Shown in pieces: positions 6,188-13,562 of a stretch of 64,000 nt of DNA (the stretch's first letter is position 1; the number at the start of each line of letters is the position of its first letter). Made by a program: the position numbers and the translations under genes. The notes beneath the pieces are model-generated. The model saw only the letters and a program-made list of their open reading frames with translations. It had not been told where the DNA came from and did no database searches. The DNA is from Aminobacterium sp. MB27-C1 (lineage in GTDB: Bacteria > Synergistota > Synergistia > Synergistales > Aminobacteriaceae). The stretch covers positions 2,232,001-2,296,000 of the forward strand of contig NZ_CP133089.1 in NCBI RefSeq assembly GCF_030908405.1, given 5' to 3'.

Positions 6188-6239
6188 TCCTATATAATAA
6201 GCATGTAAAAATTATGTACCTTTGAAAACGAGGATAAGA

Positions 6240-7826
6240 ATGGAACAAATATTTTATGATTGGCAATTTAAAGCATATACAAAAATAGAAGGGCAAAATG
6301 CTGTTCTTTCTGCTCCGACAGGGGCAGGTAAAACTCTTGTTGCATATCTTTGGGCAGGACTTTTAACAACAGAAGGAAAAATTCAAATGCCCAAAGATAC
6401 TTCGCGTATTATATTTACCGCTCCTATTAAAGCCTTAAGTAACGAACGATATATGGACCTTCGGCGCATGGGGTTTGATGTAGGAATAGAAACTGGCGAT
6501 TTCAAACGAAATGAAGAAGCTCCGATTATTTGCTGCACACAAGAAATCTATACGTTGAAATATACGAAAGATCCCGATCAAAAACTTATTATTGATGAAT
6601 TTCATTATATTTTTGAAGATCCGGACCGTGCCAGAACCTATATTGACGGCATTCGAGAAACAGCACCAACAACGTCTATTCTTGTTATGTCTGCGACCTT
6701 CAGCCAACCAAACGTTATAGGTCATTACCTCGAATCAATTACCGAGCGCAATTTTATTGTGTATGAAAGTCAAGAGCGAGCAACTGAGCTTGTTTTTACC
6801 CCTAAGAAACCTGCTCAACTCTTTTCTATTCATGATGCTCTCGTTTTTGTTTTCTCCCAACGTGGAACTATGGATTTGGCCTACAACATTGCTAGAACTA
6901 GGCGACGCCTTCCCAAAGAACAACGAAGTCGTCTCTATGAATTAGCAACTATTCTTGACGTTCCTAAAGTTCAAATGCCCCTTCTGTGTGGCGTAGGAAT
7001 TTATCATGGAGGAATGTTACCTAAAGAAAAGCTACTTGTAGAATCAGCTTTTCGTGAACGCATTCTTGATGTTGTTGTAGGAACAAACGCTCTGGCATTA
7101 GGTGTCAATCTACCTGCTGAAACAGCTATTTTTGCTCAACTAGTTCAATTTCACGATAACGCTCCCATAAGCAAAAATGAATTTCTCCAAATGTCGGGAC
7201 GAGCCGGAAGAAAAGGCCTTTTCGATACAGGCTATGTTACATGGTTAGCGAATTCCCCCTGCGAACATCGCGGATATAACACAGGGGAAGAATTTAAAAA
7301 TTTGCTTCATATGTCTCCAGAGGCAGCTTCTGTATCTCTTCGGCCAGCTTGGGGAGCCTTGTTACGACATGAAGTTCATATTGACGACGAAGCCGATTAT
7401 ATAAGCCGTTTTTCCTTACCTGAGATTGATCCTTATATTTTACGCAACGAACTGAGACAAGGATTAAAGCGCATAGATAGAGCATTACGCCGTATGGTAA
7501 AACCTCATCAAAGAAAACAGTTTAGGATTCTTTTAGCCAATATTTGGTATGAAGAGATGAGTGCTGATGAAAATCTTGAAATGGCTCGTCTTTTCTTTGC
7601 CGAAGAACGGCCAGAAGCTCTTTTCGCAGCCCAACTTGTTGCCCCTTATGAGCGGAATTATCTTCAAGCTCTACTCAAGATCAAAAGGTATGCTAATCAC
7701 CTTCCAAATGGGTATTTCTTTAGGGGGATGCGCTTTCTTAATCAAACTGTTGATGACATAGACCCAACTATTTATGGTTTTGAAGAAAAAATTAATGAAA
7801 TAGAAGGATCTTCGAAAAAAGCCTAA
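6240..7826 (+). CDS. Ski2-like DEAD/DEAH-box helicase
   Basis: A 528-residue superfamily 2 helicase. Motif I APTGAGKT lies at residues 25-32, motif Ia in TAPIKALSNERY, motif II is DEFH near 115, motif III SATF near 145, and the C-terminal motif VI region is QMSGRAGRKG near 320. This order and the short spacing resemble archaeal Hel308/Ski2-type and bacterial Lhr-core-like enzymes rather than RecQ or UvrD. The ATG at 6240 is chosen over an upstream TTG because GAGG sits 7 bases before it. The gene stands alone and converges on the HD-GYP gene, overlapping it by 4 bases. Substrate (RNA or branched DNA) is unknown. Confidence 0.82.
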   Translation: MEQIFYDWQFKAYTKIEGQNAVLSAPTGAGKTLVAYLWAGLLTTEGKIQMPKDTSRIIFTAPIKALSNERYMDLRRMGFDVGIETGDFKRNEEAPIICCTQEIYTLKYTKDPDQKLIIDEFHYIFEDPDRARTYIDGIRETAPTTSILVMSATFSQPNVIGHYLESITERNFIVYESQERATELVFTPKKPAQLFSIHDALVFVFSQRGTMDLAYNIARTRRRLPKEQRSRLYELATILDVPKVQMPLLCGVGIYHGGMLPKEKLLVESAFRERILDVVVGTNALALGVNLPAETAIFAQLVQFHDNAPISKNEFLQMSGRAGRKGLFDTGYVTWLANSPCEHRGYNTGEEFKNLLHMSPEAASVSLRPAWGALLRHEVHIDDEADYISRFSLPEIDPYILRNELRQGLKRIDRALRRMVKPHQRKQFRILLANIWYEEMSADENLEMARLFFAEERPEALFAAQLVAPYERNYLQALLKIKRYANHLPNGYFFRGMRFLNQTVDDIDPTIYGFEEKINEIEGSSKKA

Positions 7827-8974
7827 GCAGAGAAGGATTTGCCAATATCGCTGAGGCAACGACGTATAAAAAGATCTTTTTGACATGCTAAATCTACAAT
7901 CACAAGATCTCGTACAGCATCTCCATGAGTATTGATTCGAAGCATGAGCTTAGGGCGCAATATATCTCGGCCTGCAGAGGCAATAACAATTCCGATGCTG
8001 TAATCTGAAAGTTCGACAATCGTTCCAGGCGGATAAAGCCCTAGGGAGCATAGAAGGACCCCAACGATTTTTTTATCAAAATGAGTATCAGCGTTTTGTA
8101 TAATCATTGAGAGGGCCTGGCGAGTTTCTAGAGAATCACGATATATACGCTTTGTGGTAAGAGCATCGAAAACATCGGCAACAGCCGCAATACGGGCTTC
8201 AAAAGGAATCTGTTCTCCTCTTAACTTATCAGGGTAACCATTTCCTTTCCATCGTTCATGATGATGGCGTACTATAGCAAGAACACGTTTATCAGAGACC
8301 CCAGACTCTCGGAGCAACCTTTCTCCTTCTTCTGGGTGTCTGTTTATAATACTGAATTCACGCGGAGTGAGAGGGCCAGGCTTGTTAAGGATATCAAGAC
8401 TTATACATGCCTTGCCCACATCATGTAGCAGTCCCCCCATTACTTGCCTTTCAACCACTTGTATTTGATTTGGAAAGAGACGAGACGTAATAAACCCACT
8501 AAGAAGAGCTACGTTCAACGAATGAATAAAGGTATACTCATCCCAATTTCTTACCCTGGCCATAACAAGAAGAACTTGCGGAGTGCTCATCAGCGTTTTG
8601 GCAAGAGAGCGACTATTTGATATAAGAGATGATAACTCCTCAGAACTAGGCTCCCTACCTGAACGAAAGCGTTCATATACATCTTGAATCTGTTGAATTG
8701 TCACTTTCGCCAAATGTCTATCAAGAGCAACGAGATTCAGATCAGAATCTTGAAGAGCCATCTGGAAATCTTCTTTTGAAAAATGTATCTCCTTCTGAAT
8801 AGGAACTGAGCGAATGCCCCATTGTATTAACGTATCAGGTAAACGTGGAAAATTCTGCATAACAACTTTGATATCGCTATGTTTTGGGAGCAAAAGAAGA
8901 CCACCGGGGGCAATTATATCCTCCGCCAAATGTCCCCATATATGATGAAGCTCTGAGACAGCTATCTGCTGTAT
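7823..8974 (-). CDS. HD-GYP domain cyclic-di-GMP phosphodiesterase-type protein; apparent ATA start
   Basis: A cytoplasmic c-di-GMP hydrolase of the HD-GYP class, last gene of the ODP/chemoreceptor operon. The HD motif (LLHDVGK) and the GYP motif (HHERWKGNGYP, then AAVADVFDAL) are intact, so activity is expected. The N-terminal region resembles the DUF3391-like start of this family, which normally reads M-x-x-I-x-V-x-E-L followed by the AEDI..GGLLLLPK hairpin. That start is encoded here as ATA CAG CAG ATA GCT GTC. The nearest standard codon (TTG at 8929) would cut into the domain. ATA at 8974 (or CTG at 8977) follows GGGGGGA at 6-10 bases. Gap to the chemoreceptor gene is about 28 bases. Confidence 0.83.
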   Translation of the reverse strand: MQQIAVSELHHIWGHLAEDIIAPGGLLLLPKHSDIKVVMQNFPRLPDTLIQWGIRSVPIQKEIHFSKEDFQMALQDSDLNLVALDRHLAKVTIQQIQDVYERFRSGREPSSEELSSLISNSRSLAKTLMSTPQVLLVMARVRNWDEYTFIHSLNVALLSGFITSRLFPNQIQVVERQVMGGLLHDVGKACISLDILNKPGPLTPREFSIINRHPEEGERLLRESGVSDKRVLAIVRHHHERWKGNGYPDKLRGEQIPFEARIAAVADVFDALTTKRIYRDSLETRQALSMIIQNADTHFDKKIVGVLLCSLGLYPPGTIVELSDYSIGIVIASAGRDILRPKLMLRINTHGDAVRDLVIVDLACQKDLFIRRCLSDIGKSFSA

Positions 8975-9002
8975 CAGAAAAAGTCCCCCCTTATATCCAA
9001 GA

Positions 9003-9848
9003 TTAAAGTTTAATATTTTTCAAATTCTTTTGGGCTGTCACAATAGCTGAAATAGTAGCTGTCATAGATTCAAACTTTTTTGAAGCATCATCCATAACTC
9101 CAATTGAACGTTCCATCTCTTCTGAACTTTCGCTAATTTGAAGTCCTGAATCTTTCATTGTCTGATGAATTTGTTCCATAAAGTTTTTATTTTTTATCAG
9201 ATAGTCAGAAAAAGAGACAAGAGTGCTCCGAATCATCTGAAACATGTCTCCCACTTTTTGAACGCTCTCCATTGCTTCGTTTACAGAGCTCGAAATCTCG
9301 CTGACCTTCGTCGTAATGTTCTCAGAAGCTCCTTTGGTTTCTGCTGCTAACTCCTGAACATTTTTAGCAACTATGGCAAAACCTCGTCCATGTTCACCAG
9401 CCCTTGCTGCTTCTATTGAAGCATTTAACGCCAAAAGATTGGTTTGCTTTGCTATACGCTGAATCTCTTTCGACATTTTTTCTACTTCGAGAAAAGACTC
9501 AAGAGTTCCATAGGTCGTCTGAACAGTATGCCGCACATCATCGCTCATACTCTCAAGATCCGTTCCTGAACGATCAAGATCTTCCATAAGCTTTTTATTC
9601 ATTGAATTGATTTCTTCAACACTCTGACTGGTCTGTTGGCTCTTCTGATCAAAATCCTGAACAACCATTTCCAGAGAGCGGCTTAAGCGCATAAATTCCT
9701 GAGCAGTCTGCTGTATTTCTCCCTCAACCCGCTGCACTCGTCGTACCAAGACATCATCAAGTTGGGCCATGAAAGAATTCATCATGGTATCAGCAAAAAA
9801 AGCCGACCCCAAACGACGAATCACTTCTTCGTACTTTTTATCGGCCAT
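9003..9848 (-). CDS. soluble methyl-accepting chemotaxis protein-like signalling protein
   Basis: A 281-residue all-helical protein with no membrane segment. The C-terminal half carries the receptor hairpin tip ([29 protein letters not shown]) that contacts CheA and CheW. No CheR/CheB-binding pentapeptide ends the protein. The N-terminal 60 residues are an unrecognised helical region that could receive a signal from a partner. The ATG at 9848 follows the ODP stop codon by one base (TAATATG), so the two proteins are translationally coupled. A receptor without its own sensor placed this tightly beside a diiron protein suggests the ODP is its sensor subunit; that is inference. Confidence 0.85.
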
Positions 9849-9849
9849 A

Positions 9850-10626
9850 TTAAGCACCAGCTCCATAAACAGTATCAAGGAGATCAGTTCCACATCGAAG
9901 ATTTTCAAACCACGAGAAAAATTTTTTTACGTTTTCTCCTTGAATAACTGCTCCATGTTGAGGGGCAATAGCCTGAATATCTAAAGATGACAATTGCTTT
10001 ACCCAGCGACGGCAGACAGCATTAGAAGCCATATAGCGCTTATGAAACCCTTCCATATATTGCAGATGATCCTCAAAGTTTTCGACAATCGCATATCTTT
10101 TCCCCTTTGGGAATATAGCTGCACCAATATCGCCAGTAAACAGAATCTTCGATATAGGATCGTATAGGGAAAAAGCCCCCGTAGAATGAAGAAAGTGTGA
10201 AGGGATGAGTTTCATCGTCTTTCCATTAGAAAAAGAGAGAGCCCCTCCTCGATCAGGAATCGCAGTGATTCTTTTATGGTCATAAATACCAAAATGAGGC
10301 AAAAATCGAGTCCAAAGAGAAGAAATATATACCTGAGCTCGATCGGTCATAGAGAGCCATAAAGTAATTCCTGAAGAAACATCAGGATCTTGATGGGAAT
10401 AAAAAATGTGGCGAATACGGTGTAAATCAAAAAGCTCTGCAACATTGGCCAATACCCGAGGAAAGACATGAGCTCCACCTGGATCAAGTAAAAGAACCTC
10501 TTTTCCTGAAACGATCACATATTGATTTGTCTGAACAACACCTTCCTCTTCCTGCTCTTCCCACGCTAGAAGGTAAAAACTATGATCGTCATGTTCATAT
10601 AGAGAAATCGAACTTCGATGCTCCAT
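9850..10626 (-). CDS. ODP-family diiron/metallo-beta-lactamase-fold protein
   Basis: A 258-residue stand-alone relative of the flavodiiron protein N-terminal domain. Metal-ligand motifs are [10 protein letters not shown] near residue 90 (in place of HxExDH), HFLHSTGAF near 150, FTGDIGA near 170 and PQHGA near 220. The HQDPD form is characteristic of the oxygen-binding diiron (ODP) branch; a Treponema denticola member serves as a chemotaxis oxygen sensor. No flavodoxin domain is attached, so reductase activity would need a separate partner. The start ATG at 10626 lies 8 bases after GGAGGAG. It is sandwiched between a GGDEF-EAL gene and a soluble chemoreceptor gene. Confidence 0.82.
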
Positions 10627-10665
10627 GGAGACATCTCCTCCGTTCATAATAGTGATCAAGGTACG

Positions 10666-13125
10666 TTAAATTGTATTATTAATTATAAAGGATACCAACT
10701 CTTTTTCCTCAAGAGGCTTACTAGTAACATATCCTTGAATAGCATCGCAATTGATATCTTTCAAAAAATCAAGCTGTTCATGTGTTTCCACACCCTCCGC
10801 AATGGTACCCAGCCCCAGAGAATGAGCCATATTAACCATTGTTTTTACGAGGACTTCTTTTCGGCGATCTATTCCTATTCCATCGATAAAAGATTTATCG
10901 ACCTTAATGACATCTATCGGAAATTGGCTTAAATAGGCAAGAGAAGAGTATCCCGTGCCAAAATCGTCCATATAAATACGGCATCCGAGAATCTTCATTT
11001 CTCGTAAAAGATCTAAAGAAGCGTCTACATTTCGCATAACACCAGATTCAGTAATTTCAAATCCTATTTCCCCAGGTTTGATAGAGTAGGCTTCAAGAAT
11101 ACGCCTTACCTCAGAAATAAAATTCTCCTGCAAAAGCTGCCGAGTTGAGATATTCACACTTATTTCAAGGGGAGGATTTCCCTGTTTCTTCCATTCCTGC
11201 TGATGTCTGCACGCCATCATAAGGATTTCCTCTCCAAGGGGCAATATCAAACCTGTTTCCTCTGCTACAGGAATAAAATATGAAGGCATAATAAGGCCTT
11301 TTTGGGGATGCTGCCAACGTACCAAAGATTCAAATCCATTGATCATACCTGTTTTAAGTTGAAGCTGTGGCTGATAAAAAAGTACAAAATTTTTATTCAA
11401 AAGACTCTCTCTCAGATCATTTTCAAGCAAAAGACGATAAGAGGCCCGCTCTCCAAGTTCCTCTTTAAAAAATTCGTAGGAATTTAACCCCGTTTCGCGG
11501 GCTTTATGAAGGGCAATATCTGCTTTTTGTAACAAGACTTCTGTAGTAGTGCCATCATCAGGAGCGATGGCAATTCCGATACGAGCTGTTAAAAATATTG
11601 GTCGCTCTGCCAAATGAAAGGGCTCTTTGAAACAATGAAGCAACGCCCGCGCCATATGCGCTATATCAGCCACTCGCTGCGCCTGATGAATTAAAATATA
11701 ATAATCATCCCCGCCTATTCTGGCCACAGTATTAGATTCCCCCACTGTCTTTTGAAGACGTTGGGCAACTTGCTGTAAAAGCTGATCCCCCGAAAAATGT
11801 CCCAAACTTTCATTTACATTTTTAAAGCGATTAATATCAAGAAAGAGAACCCCCGCAAAAAAACCTTTTTGTTCAATATTTTTCAACTCTCGATCCAATC
11901 TATCAAGAAACATTATTTTGTTAGGTAATCCTGTAAGCTGATCGTACAAAGATTTGAGACGAATCTGAGCATCTTTAGTTTTCATTTCAGAAAGATCGCT
12001 AAAGACCGAAATATATTCTGATATTTTCCCATTCCCATCATATACAGCTGCCACAGAAAGCCATTCAGGGTAAACTTCTCCACTTTTTCTACGGTTCCAA
12101 ATTTCTCCTTCCCAATAGCCCTTTTCAATAAGTTCCTTCCAAAAATTTACATAAAATTCTCTAGGGTGTTTTTGAGATTTTAAAATCCTGGGATTTTTCC
12201 CTATAGCCTCATGAGCTTCGTATCCAGTAATTGTCGTGAAAGCGGGGTTTACCGATTTAATTGTGGCATGAACATCGGTAACCACTATTCCCTCAAGAGT
12301 ATGTTTCATTACTGCCAAAGCAATCTGCAAGTCTTTTTCCCGCTTCTTCTCTTCTGATATATCTAGCAAAACACCTATAACACGAGATAGCTCTCCATTT
12401 TCATAAAAAGCTTTCGTTTTAGAAGCAATTATCTTTTGCTCTCCATCAGGCGTCACTATTTTGAATTCCTCGTTTTCGGAGTTTTCCCTGATTTCTCCGC
12501 CACGAAGAAGGTGATCAAGAAGATGGGCTACGTATAAACGATCTTCTACATGAATTCGTGAATAAAAAGATCTAAAACTAGGTGTAATTTCTTTACGCTC
12601 ATACCCAAGAATACGATAGAGATGGTCGCTCCAGGTTAATGTCATGGACGAAGGAATCCATTCCCAATACCCTAAGTGCACTAATTCCTGAGCATGAGAA
12701 AGAGAATTCTCCTTCTGAAGTAATTCTTCATTATGTTCTTTGTCTTTTGTTATATCCATGCCGACAAGCAAAACACATTTTCTCTTGTTGACGCTATCCT
12801 CAAAATACTTGGTATGAGTGGCAAAATACAACCTCTTTGAACCGTGAATATAAAAAGAAACATCCTCTATCTCTCTATCTTTTTCAAAAGAAGCGATATT
12901 ATTTCTTCTATACCAACCATCAAGCTGTTCAAATAAAAAACCATACACTTTAGTCAACTCAAAAAGCGAACGTTCTTGGCACTCTTCGTTTGTAACGTGG
13001 AACAACCGACATAAAAATTCGTTACCCCACACCCACCTTGCGGATGAATCAAGAATGAGGGCTATTCCTGAAAATTGACTAAAAATATTTTTAATTTCGC
13101 CGTATTCTATGCACTGAGTGTTCAT
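10666..13125 (-). CDS. PAS-PAS-PAS-GGDEF-EAL cyclic-di-GMP signalling protein
   Basis: An 819-residue cytoplasmic protein with three PAS/PAC sensor modules (about 10-125, 130-260, 265-385), a GGDEF domain (about 390-550) and an EAL domain (about 565-815). The cyclase signature reads GGDDY rather than GGDEF, so synthesis may be weak or lost. The EAL side keeps ESLVRW, ENDLRESL, DDFGTGYSSL and EGVET, consistent with an active phosphodiesterase. There is no transmembrane segment. PAS modules often bind haem or flavin, but no cofactor is evident. It starts 8 bases after the MOSC gene and is followed 39 bases later by the ODP gene, within one operon. Confidence 0.92.
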   Translation of the reverse strand: MNTQCIEYGEIKNIFSQFSGIALILDSSARWVWGNEFLCRLFHVTNEECQERSLFELTKVYGFLFEQLDGWYRRNNIASFEKDREIEDVSFYIHGSKRLYFATHTKYFEDSVNKRKCVLLVGMDITKDKEHNEELLQKENSLSHAQELVHLGYWEWIPSSMTLTWSDHLYRILGYERKEITPSFRSFYSRIHVEDRLYVAHLLDHLLRGGEIRENSENEEFKIVTPDGEQKIIASKTKAFYENGELSRVIGVLLDISEEKKREKDLQIALAVMKHTLEGIVVTDVHATIKSVNPAFTTITGYEAHEAIGKNPRILKSQKHPREFYVNFWKELIEKGYWEGEIWNRRKSGEVYPEWLSVAAVYDGNGKISEYISVFSDLSEMKTKDAQIRLKSLYDQLTGLPNKIMFLDRLDRELKNIEQKGFFAGVLFLDINRFKNVNESLGHFSGDQLLQQVAQRLQKTVGESNTVARIGGDDYYILIHQAQRVADIAHMARALLHCFKEPFHLAERPIFLTARIGIAIAPDDGTTTEVLLQKADIALHKARETGLNSYEFFKEELGERASYRLLLENDLRESLLNKNFVLFYQPQLQLKTGMINGFESLVRWQHPQKGLIMPSYFIPVAEETGLILPLGEEILMMACRHQQEWKKQGNPPLEISVNISTRQLLQENFISEVRRILEAYSIKPGEIGFEITESGVMRNVDASLDLLREMKILGCRIYMDDFGTGYSSLAYLSQFPIDVIKVDKSFIDGIGIDRRKEVLVKTMVNMAHSLGLGTIAEGVETHEQLDFLKDINCDAIQGYVTSKPLEEKELVSFIINNTI

Positions 13126-13133
13126 TTAGATAC

Positions 13134-13562
13134 CTAGGCTGAAATAGAAACGGGATCTCCAGGGAAGACATCCCCCTGTTGAATAACTTTGAGGAAATAG
13201 CCGCATATAGGCAATAGACACCATCCTTTATAATCATACGAATGGGGTTCTTCTGGTTTTTTGCCTTTTTCAATAACTTGAAGTTTAGCTGTCGCCCCTA
13301 CGTTAAGAATCGAACCAATAGGAAGCTCTTCGGGTAATCCTTCTATCAGGAGATTTTCAGCAAGAGAGCCAGGCGGAAATGCGAATTGAGCTTCTTGCTC
13401 TGCTTTTTCTACGTCTTCACGCCGAAGCAAACTAACTTCTCTTTCATTTATGTTAAAGTGAGAATCTCCTTCGATCCCACCAAAAGTAAAATGAGCTTTT
13501 TCCACTCTTTGTTTAGCTTCGTTTCGCCGATTACTTATACATATGGCAAGAACTTTTCCCAT
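13134..13562 (-). CDS. MOSC domain-containing protein
   Basis: A 142-residue stand-alone MOSC (molybdenum cofactor sulfurase C-terminal) protein, beta-rich. The family core includes GDSHF near residue 33, FPPGSLAENLLIEGLPEELPIG in the centre and KGWCLLPICGYFLKVIQQGDVFPGD at the end, where the cysteine is the presumed sulfur carrier. It opens the minus-strand operon that continues with c-di-GMP and oxygen-sensor genes. ATG follows AGGAGGG by 9 bases. Small MOSC proteins often sit in molybdopterin clusters, yet no moa/mob gene is in view, so its link to the rest of the operon is unexplained. Confidence 0.82.
   Translation of the reverse strand: MGKVLAICISNRRNEAKQRVEKAHFTFGGIEGDSHFNINEREVSLLRREDVEKAEQEAQFAFPPGSLAENLLIEGLPEELPIGSILNVGATAKLQVIEKGKKPEEPHSYDYKGWCLLPICGYFLKVIQQGDVFPGDPVSISA

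Follow-up and report, generated by a model that had tools for sequence, protein, structure and literature searches.

Within the window, the 64,000-nucleotide stretch of the Aminobacterium sp. MB27-C1 genome (Synergistota; complete, 2.43 Mb) that was analysed here, five genes run on the minus strand toward a convergent helicase gene. The features of this region are as follows:

6222..7826, plus strand: DEAD-type helicase, convergent with the run and marking the 3' boundary of the cassette (gene position)
7823..8977, minus strand: predicted stand-alone HD-GYP phosphodiesterase, start probably CTG 8977 (Pfam HD_5/HD, E 5e-33)
9003..9848, minus strand: soluble sensorless MCP, 281 aa (Pfam MCPsignal, E 9e-28)
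9850..10626, minus strand: ODP, 258 aa, metallo-beta-lactamase fold, diiron (Pfam PF19583, E 5e-78)
10666..13125, minus strand: PAS(2-3)-GGDEF-EAL protein, 819 aa (Pfam EAL, E 2e-74; GGDEF, E 7e-43)
13134..13562, minus strand: MOSC-domain protein, upstream neighbor in the same-strand run, outside the cassette (Pfam)

Every domain that the preliminary description had placed in this single-strand run was confirmed by Pfam, and the spacing it gave (8, 39, 1, and about 28 bases) holds as well, with 8 bases between the MOSC and EAL genes, 39 between EAL and ODP, 1 from the ODP stop to the MCP ATG, and about 25–28 between MCP and HD-GYP. The last of these gaps is about 25 bases if CTG 8977 is taken as the HD-GYP start. 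The HD-GYP frame holds no ATG, GTG, or TTG before TTG 8929 (window 8929-8977). Because orthologues align upstream of TTG 8929, where a start would remove a conserved N-terminal stretch, and because a strong ribosome site (AAGGGGGG) precedes CTG 8977, this non-standard codon is probably the start. A scan of the locus for promoters and terminators gave no count above shuffled sequence, so it is the spacing of the genes that suggests transcription as a single unit; a search for RNA elements at the locus found none. The chance of finding c-di-GMP genes on both flanks of a gene pair is about 8e-5, a rough figure that takes ~20 c-di-GMP genes in 2300 and assumes independent loci, and together with the conservation of the order in relatives it argues that the arrangement exceeds chance.

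The ODP protein scores 262 bits against PF19583 (cut-off 27.2), and its PDB matches, 6qrq (“Oxygen-binding diiron protein,” E 8e-112, the best match) and 6qnm (E 1e-84), identify it as an orthologue of the crystallised ODPs. We take 6qrq to be the Treponema denticola ODP, while 6qnm and the MCP structures 3g67/3g6b are presumably Thermotoga proteins. Alignments reveal the same ODP-type metal-site pattern (HxDxD, H, D, H) in the window ODP and the solved ODPs, and the site residues H78, D80, D82, H147, D166, and H224 are identical in 39/39 orthologues. By Pfam the protein consists of the ODP domain alone, with no flavodoxin or rubredoxin domain. By analogy with T. denticola, we infer that it binds Fe and O2 and alters CheA via the MCP.

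The partner MCP was modelled by AlphaFold2 as a pure helical hairpin, helices only (mean pLDDT 85), with 3g67 as its best PDB match (E 3e-32). Pfam finds no sensor domain in it and no long hydrophobic stretch was seen by eye in its sequence; domain search and model thus agree with the earlier reading of a receptor that lacks a sensor domain and begins one base past the ODP stop. MCPs paired with ODP share an N-terminal motif, SFM-x-QLD-x-VLV-x-RV (residues 25–38), in which S25, F26, M27, D31, L34, and R37 are invariant across 30 paired-MCP sequences. The SFM element is present in 39/39 readable loci and sits ~22–24 residues from the MCP start in most, and 15 residues from it in family f3. A profile of the motif region recovered none of the 10 other MCPs of the host genome, and the motif was searched for and not found in ODP partners outside Synergistota. 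As it is common to the ODP-paired MCPs and absent from the host's ten others, we read it as a candidate ODP dock.

Both enzymes encoded at the flanks are predicted from their motifs to be c-di-GMP phosphodiesterases. In the PAS-GGDEF-EAL protein, the EAL catalytic motifs are intact (E[AS]L, DDFGTG, and ExVE as AEGVET), as is E[AS]LxRW in all 11 cassette relatives, and the GGDEF motif, RIGGDDY, does not match the GG[DE]EF active-site pattern of diguanylate cyclases; the RxGGDD[FY] variant recurs in 10/11 cassette relatives, with RISGDIF in the remaining one (L100). Intact EAL motifs alongside a degenerate GGDEF motif predict a protein that degrades c-di-GMP and does not make it. The HD-GYP protein likewise carries intact HDVGK and HHERxxGNGYP motifs, the latter matching HHExxGxGYP, and its model (mean pLDDT 71) matches the folds of Bd1817, 4r8z (PA4781), and 4mcw. 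Its N-terminal domain was considered as an ODP-specific dock and rejected, since related domains occur in 68/188 genomes, many without ODP, and the model matches ordinary HD-GYP structures.

Across 188 Synergistota genomes, an ODP orthologue (E < 1e-25, kept apart from flavodiiron-type hits) was found in 41. A soluble MCP lies directly downstream, 1–46 bp away, in 39/39 loci with a readable next gene, and the pairwise identities of ODP and MCP are correlated (r 0.87, 37 genomes), as expected if the two are co-inherited. CheW is present in all 41 ODP genomes and ODP in none of the 44 CheW-less genomes (Fisher p 5e-6, phylogeny not corrected). The proposal that ODP and a sensorless MCP feed CheA is therefore supported by the conserved pair, the constant chemotaxis genes, and the CheA/CheW/flagellar operon of the host. 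The ODP-MCP pair itself is a known system, characterised in T. denticola, and the window pair is a further member of it; the original ODP paper, in PNAS in 2019, reportedly described ODP-MCP coupling in several phyla. A c-di-GMP gene is an immediate neighbor in 14/41 ODP loci, with the remaining majority having none; other neighbors of Synergistota ODP-MCP pairs encode, for example, a PPDK_N-domain protein, a histidine kinase, or an epimerase. In family f5 (L119 10474-12966; L120; L121; L124), a CHASE4-PAS-GGDEF-HD_5 gene, its domains assigned by a Pfam run on L119, lies just upstream of ODP-MCP, and in L119 it overlaps ODP by 4 bp.

The order ODP-receptor-HD-GYP was sought across Synergistota and found, preceded by EAL, in four genera of one family (g1, g2, g6, and g8). 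All four genes are contiguous and face the convergent helicase in the window, in three g2 genomes, and in two g8 genomes; in another g2 genome (G027; L104 and L155) and in a g6 genome (G037; L138 and L154) the cassette is split over two contigs, and at a third g8 locus (L102) the contig ends at ODP. Gene order is kept even though MCP identity between the window and g2/g8 is only ~62–64%. The operon that joins ODP-MCP with two phosphodiesterase genes adds a new version to the known system, one conserved within a single family. Both points on which the preliminary description depended, conservation of the order in relatives and retention of chemotaxis and flagellar genes in the genome, are borne out. 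Its five-gene operon survives in part: EAL, ODP, MCP, and HD-GYP form a conserved cassette, and MOSC is only a neighbor, one that is retained in Aminobacterium colombiense (G030) without the other four genes and was not found upstream of EAL in g2 and g8.

Relatives in which genes are absent delimit the cassette further. In A. colombiense, of the same genus, exactly EAL, ODP, MCP, and HD-GYP are absent, 63 bp separate MOSC from the helicase, and the rest is syntenic; the helicase, which adjoins MOSC at this empty site, occupies the same position in g2, g6, g8, and g18 relatives. This genome has neither CheW nor FliG, and A. colombiense is non-motile (PMC3035294). Another genome of the genus (G031), with FliG and CheW, keeps EAL-ODP-MCP and has, at the place expected for HD-GYP, unrelated genes, including one for a DctM transporter component. 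Two g8 genomes with CheW and FliG (G040, G041) have the EAL gene next to the HD-GYP gene and lack the intervening ODP-MCP pair, and in G103 HD-GYP faces the helicase without EAL or ODP. Such relatives, carrying parts alone, show that ODP-MCP and EAL-HD-GYP are separable modules, which the cassette joins. In HD-GYP trees, ODP-less and ODP-bearing g8 genomes group together.

Outside Synergistota, an HD-GYP protein comes next after ODP on the same strand in 4/39 ODP loci from one scan (L061, L066, L072, L073), and further ODP partners are Roadblock/LC7 proteins and degenerate MCP-like proteins. Oceanospirillum multiglobuliferum has two tandem ODP genes followed by the HD-GYP gene, with no adjoining MCP (L061 10001-12795). 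A tandem HD/HD-GYP protein comes after ODP in Desulfobacterales (Desulfobacterota; L066 2715-3920), in Desulfatibacillum (Desulfobacterota; L072 10771-13524), where it runs on into PAS and histidine kinase, and in Nitrospirae (L073 9600-12069), where a Roadblock/LC7 protein stands before ODP. Degenerate or short MCP-like proteins precede ODP with a 4-base overlap in three loci (L071 9195-9998, L085 3166-4014, L148 4381-4998), and on an Eleftheria terrae plasmid an ODP-like gene is convergent with a GGDEF gene (L150 3995-5608). As far as gene neighborhood goes, family f5 and the HD-GYP neighbors outside the phylum suggest that the link between ODP and c-di-GMP is more than a one-off.

The host genome encodes 11 MCPs, one CheA, two further CheW-domain proteins, and FliG. 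Its flagellar/chemotaxis operon, at 436–474 kb, includes MotA, a CheY-like regulator, FlhG, PilZ, CheB, CheA, CheC, CheD, and a sigma factor. No other PilZ protein is encoded in the genome; this one is of the YcgR type (PilZNR plus PilZ), and its gene (G000:C1 464102-464941; L142 9102-9941) stands between those for FlhG and CheB. About 20 c-di-GMP proteins were counted, with 12 matches to GGDEF and 10, including partial ones, to HD_5.

We put at roughly 60% the reading in which the cassette is a two-module motility operon, its ODP-MCP receptor and its phosphodiesterase pair coordinated mainly by co-expression. Cytoplasmic ODP would bind O2 at its diiron site, sensing O2 or iron status, and might dock on the sensorless MCP at its N-terminal helices; the MCP would sit in the CheA/CheW array and, if it behaves as its T. 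denticola counterpart does, change CheA activity. The EAL protein, with its degenerate GGDEF domain in a regulatory role, and the HD-GYP protein, presumably made from the same transcript, would keep c-di-GMP low, which could relieve braking by the single YcgR-type PilZ protein during the response, and both modules would then converge on the flagellar motor. This explanation draws on the ODP metal site, the pairing with an MCP in 39/39 loci, the co-occurrence with CheW, the MCP motif, the YcgR-type PilZ protein, the joint absence from A. colombiense, and the order shared by four genera. Against it stand G040 and G041, which keep the phosphodiesterases without ODP-MCP, G031, which is without HD-GYP, the figure of 14/41 for c-di-GMP neighbors, promoter and terminator counts no higher than in shuffled sequence, and the fact that ODP goes unseen in the array in T. 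denticola tomograms. For the earlier claim that oxygen or NO acting via ODP lowers c-di-GMP, we find nothing beyond co-occurrence, as the phosphodiesterases persist without ODP-MCP and most pairs are without a c-di-GMP neighbor; we retain oxygen lowering c-di-GMP via ODP as a hypothesis. The effect could even be opposite in sign, since a hemerythrin HD-GYP, a diiron sensor, works in its reduced state and is inactive in its oxidised one (PMC8846402).

Closer to the preliminary description, oxygen-loaded ODP might instead contact the MCP and also at least one of the phosphodiesterases, steering chemotaxis and setting c-di-GMP directly. The loci outside the phylum in which ODP is followed by HD-GYP with no adjoining MCP fit such contact, as do the overlapping f5 gene and the lack of a recognised sensor domain (Pfam) in the window HD-GYP, but the EAL protein has PAS domains of its own, and domains related to the HD-GYP N-terminus also occur without ODP. 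We consider direct control less likely than co-expression because EAL and HD-GYP persist without ODP in G040 and G041. The same separate occurrence of the modules, together with the other neighbors of most Synergistota ODP-MCP pairs, would suit an account in which chance placed ODP-MCP between two phosphodiesterase genes whose promoter it uses but to which it is unrelated in function. That account seems unlikely given an order kept in four genera despite the divergence of the MCPs, ODP/c-di-GMP neighborhoods that recur in other lineages, and the absence of all four genes together with flagella in A. colombiense. Nor does ODP look like an enzyme scavenging O2 or NO to protect an anaerobe: though related to the diiron domain of flavodiiron proteins, it has no flavodoxin or rubredoxin domain as electron supply, the genome already has a flavodiiron-like frame of 408 aa elsewhere, and ODP is strictly paired with an MCP and with CheW, all of which makes this role very improbable.

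Beyond the two-module operon, we tentatively entertain a broader possibility, that lineages share ODP as an exchangeable diiron sensor, which serves chemotaxis via an MCP or c-di-GMP turnover via HD-GYP depending on the lineage, and both here. If true, this would make ODP the first known metallo-beta-lactamase-fold input to c-di-GMP signalling; we know of no earlier one, and a term search found no diiron sensor of metallo-beta-lactamase type in a 2022 census of c-di-GMP inputs. In this strict anaerobe an oxygen sensor module is encoded alongside c-di-GMP turnover, a testable case in which oxygen sensing and release of the flagellar brake may come on at the same time; natural genomes without each module can serve as controls.

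Among solved structures, the closest MCP relatives are 3g67/3g6b, and 6qnm is a second ODP structure, all from Thermotoga. The nearest characterised system is that of T. denticola, where ODP (TDE2498) is coupled to an MCP (TDE2496) that is without transmembrane and sensing modules and modulates CheA (PMC7666581). The window likewise has an ODP orthologue gene-coupled to a sensorless MCP, and differs in the EAL and HD-GYP genes that flank the pair. ODP deletion in T. denticola changes CheA order in the array, in which tomograms offered no visible place for ODP (PMC7666581), and the MCP motif provides a concrete candidate for the contact between ODP and receptor. Nonheme diiron sensors also tie O2 or redox sensing to chemotaxis or c-di-GMP (PMC9388753, PMC8846402), but with another fold and in a single fused chain, whereas the window has separate genes with both outputs adjacent. 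Aerotaxis is joined with c-di-GMP in the PilZ aerotaxis receptors Tlp1 and Aer of A. brasilense as well; there c-di-GMP binds the receptor (PMC13401364), whereas in the window the link lies in phosphodiesterase genes within the operon.
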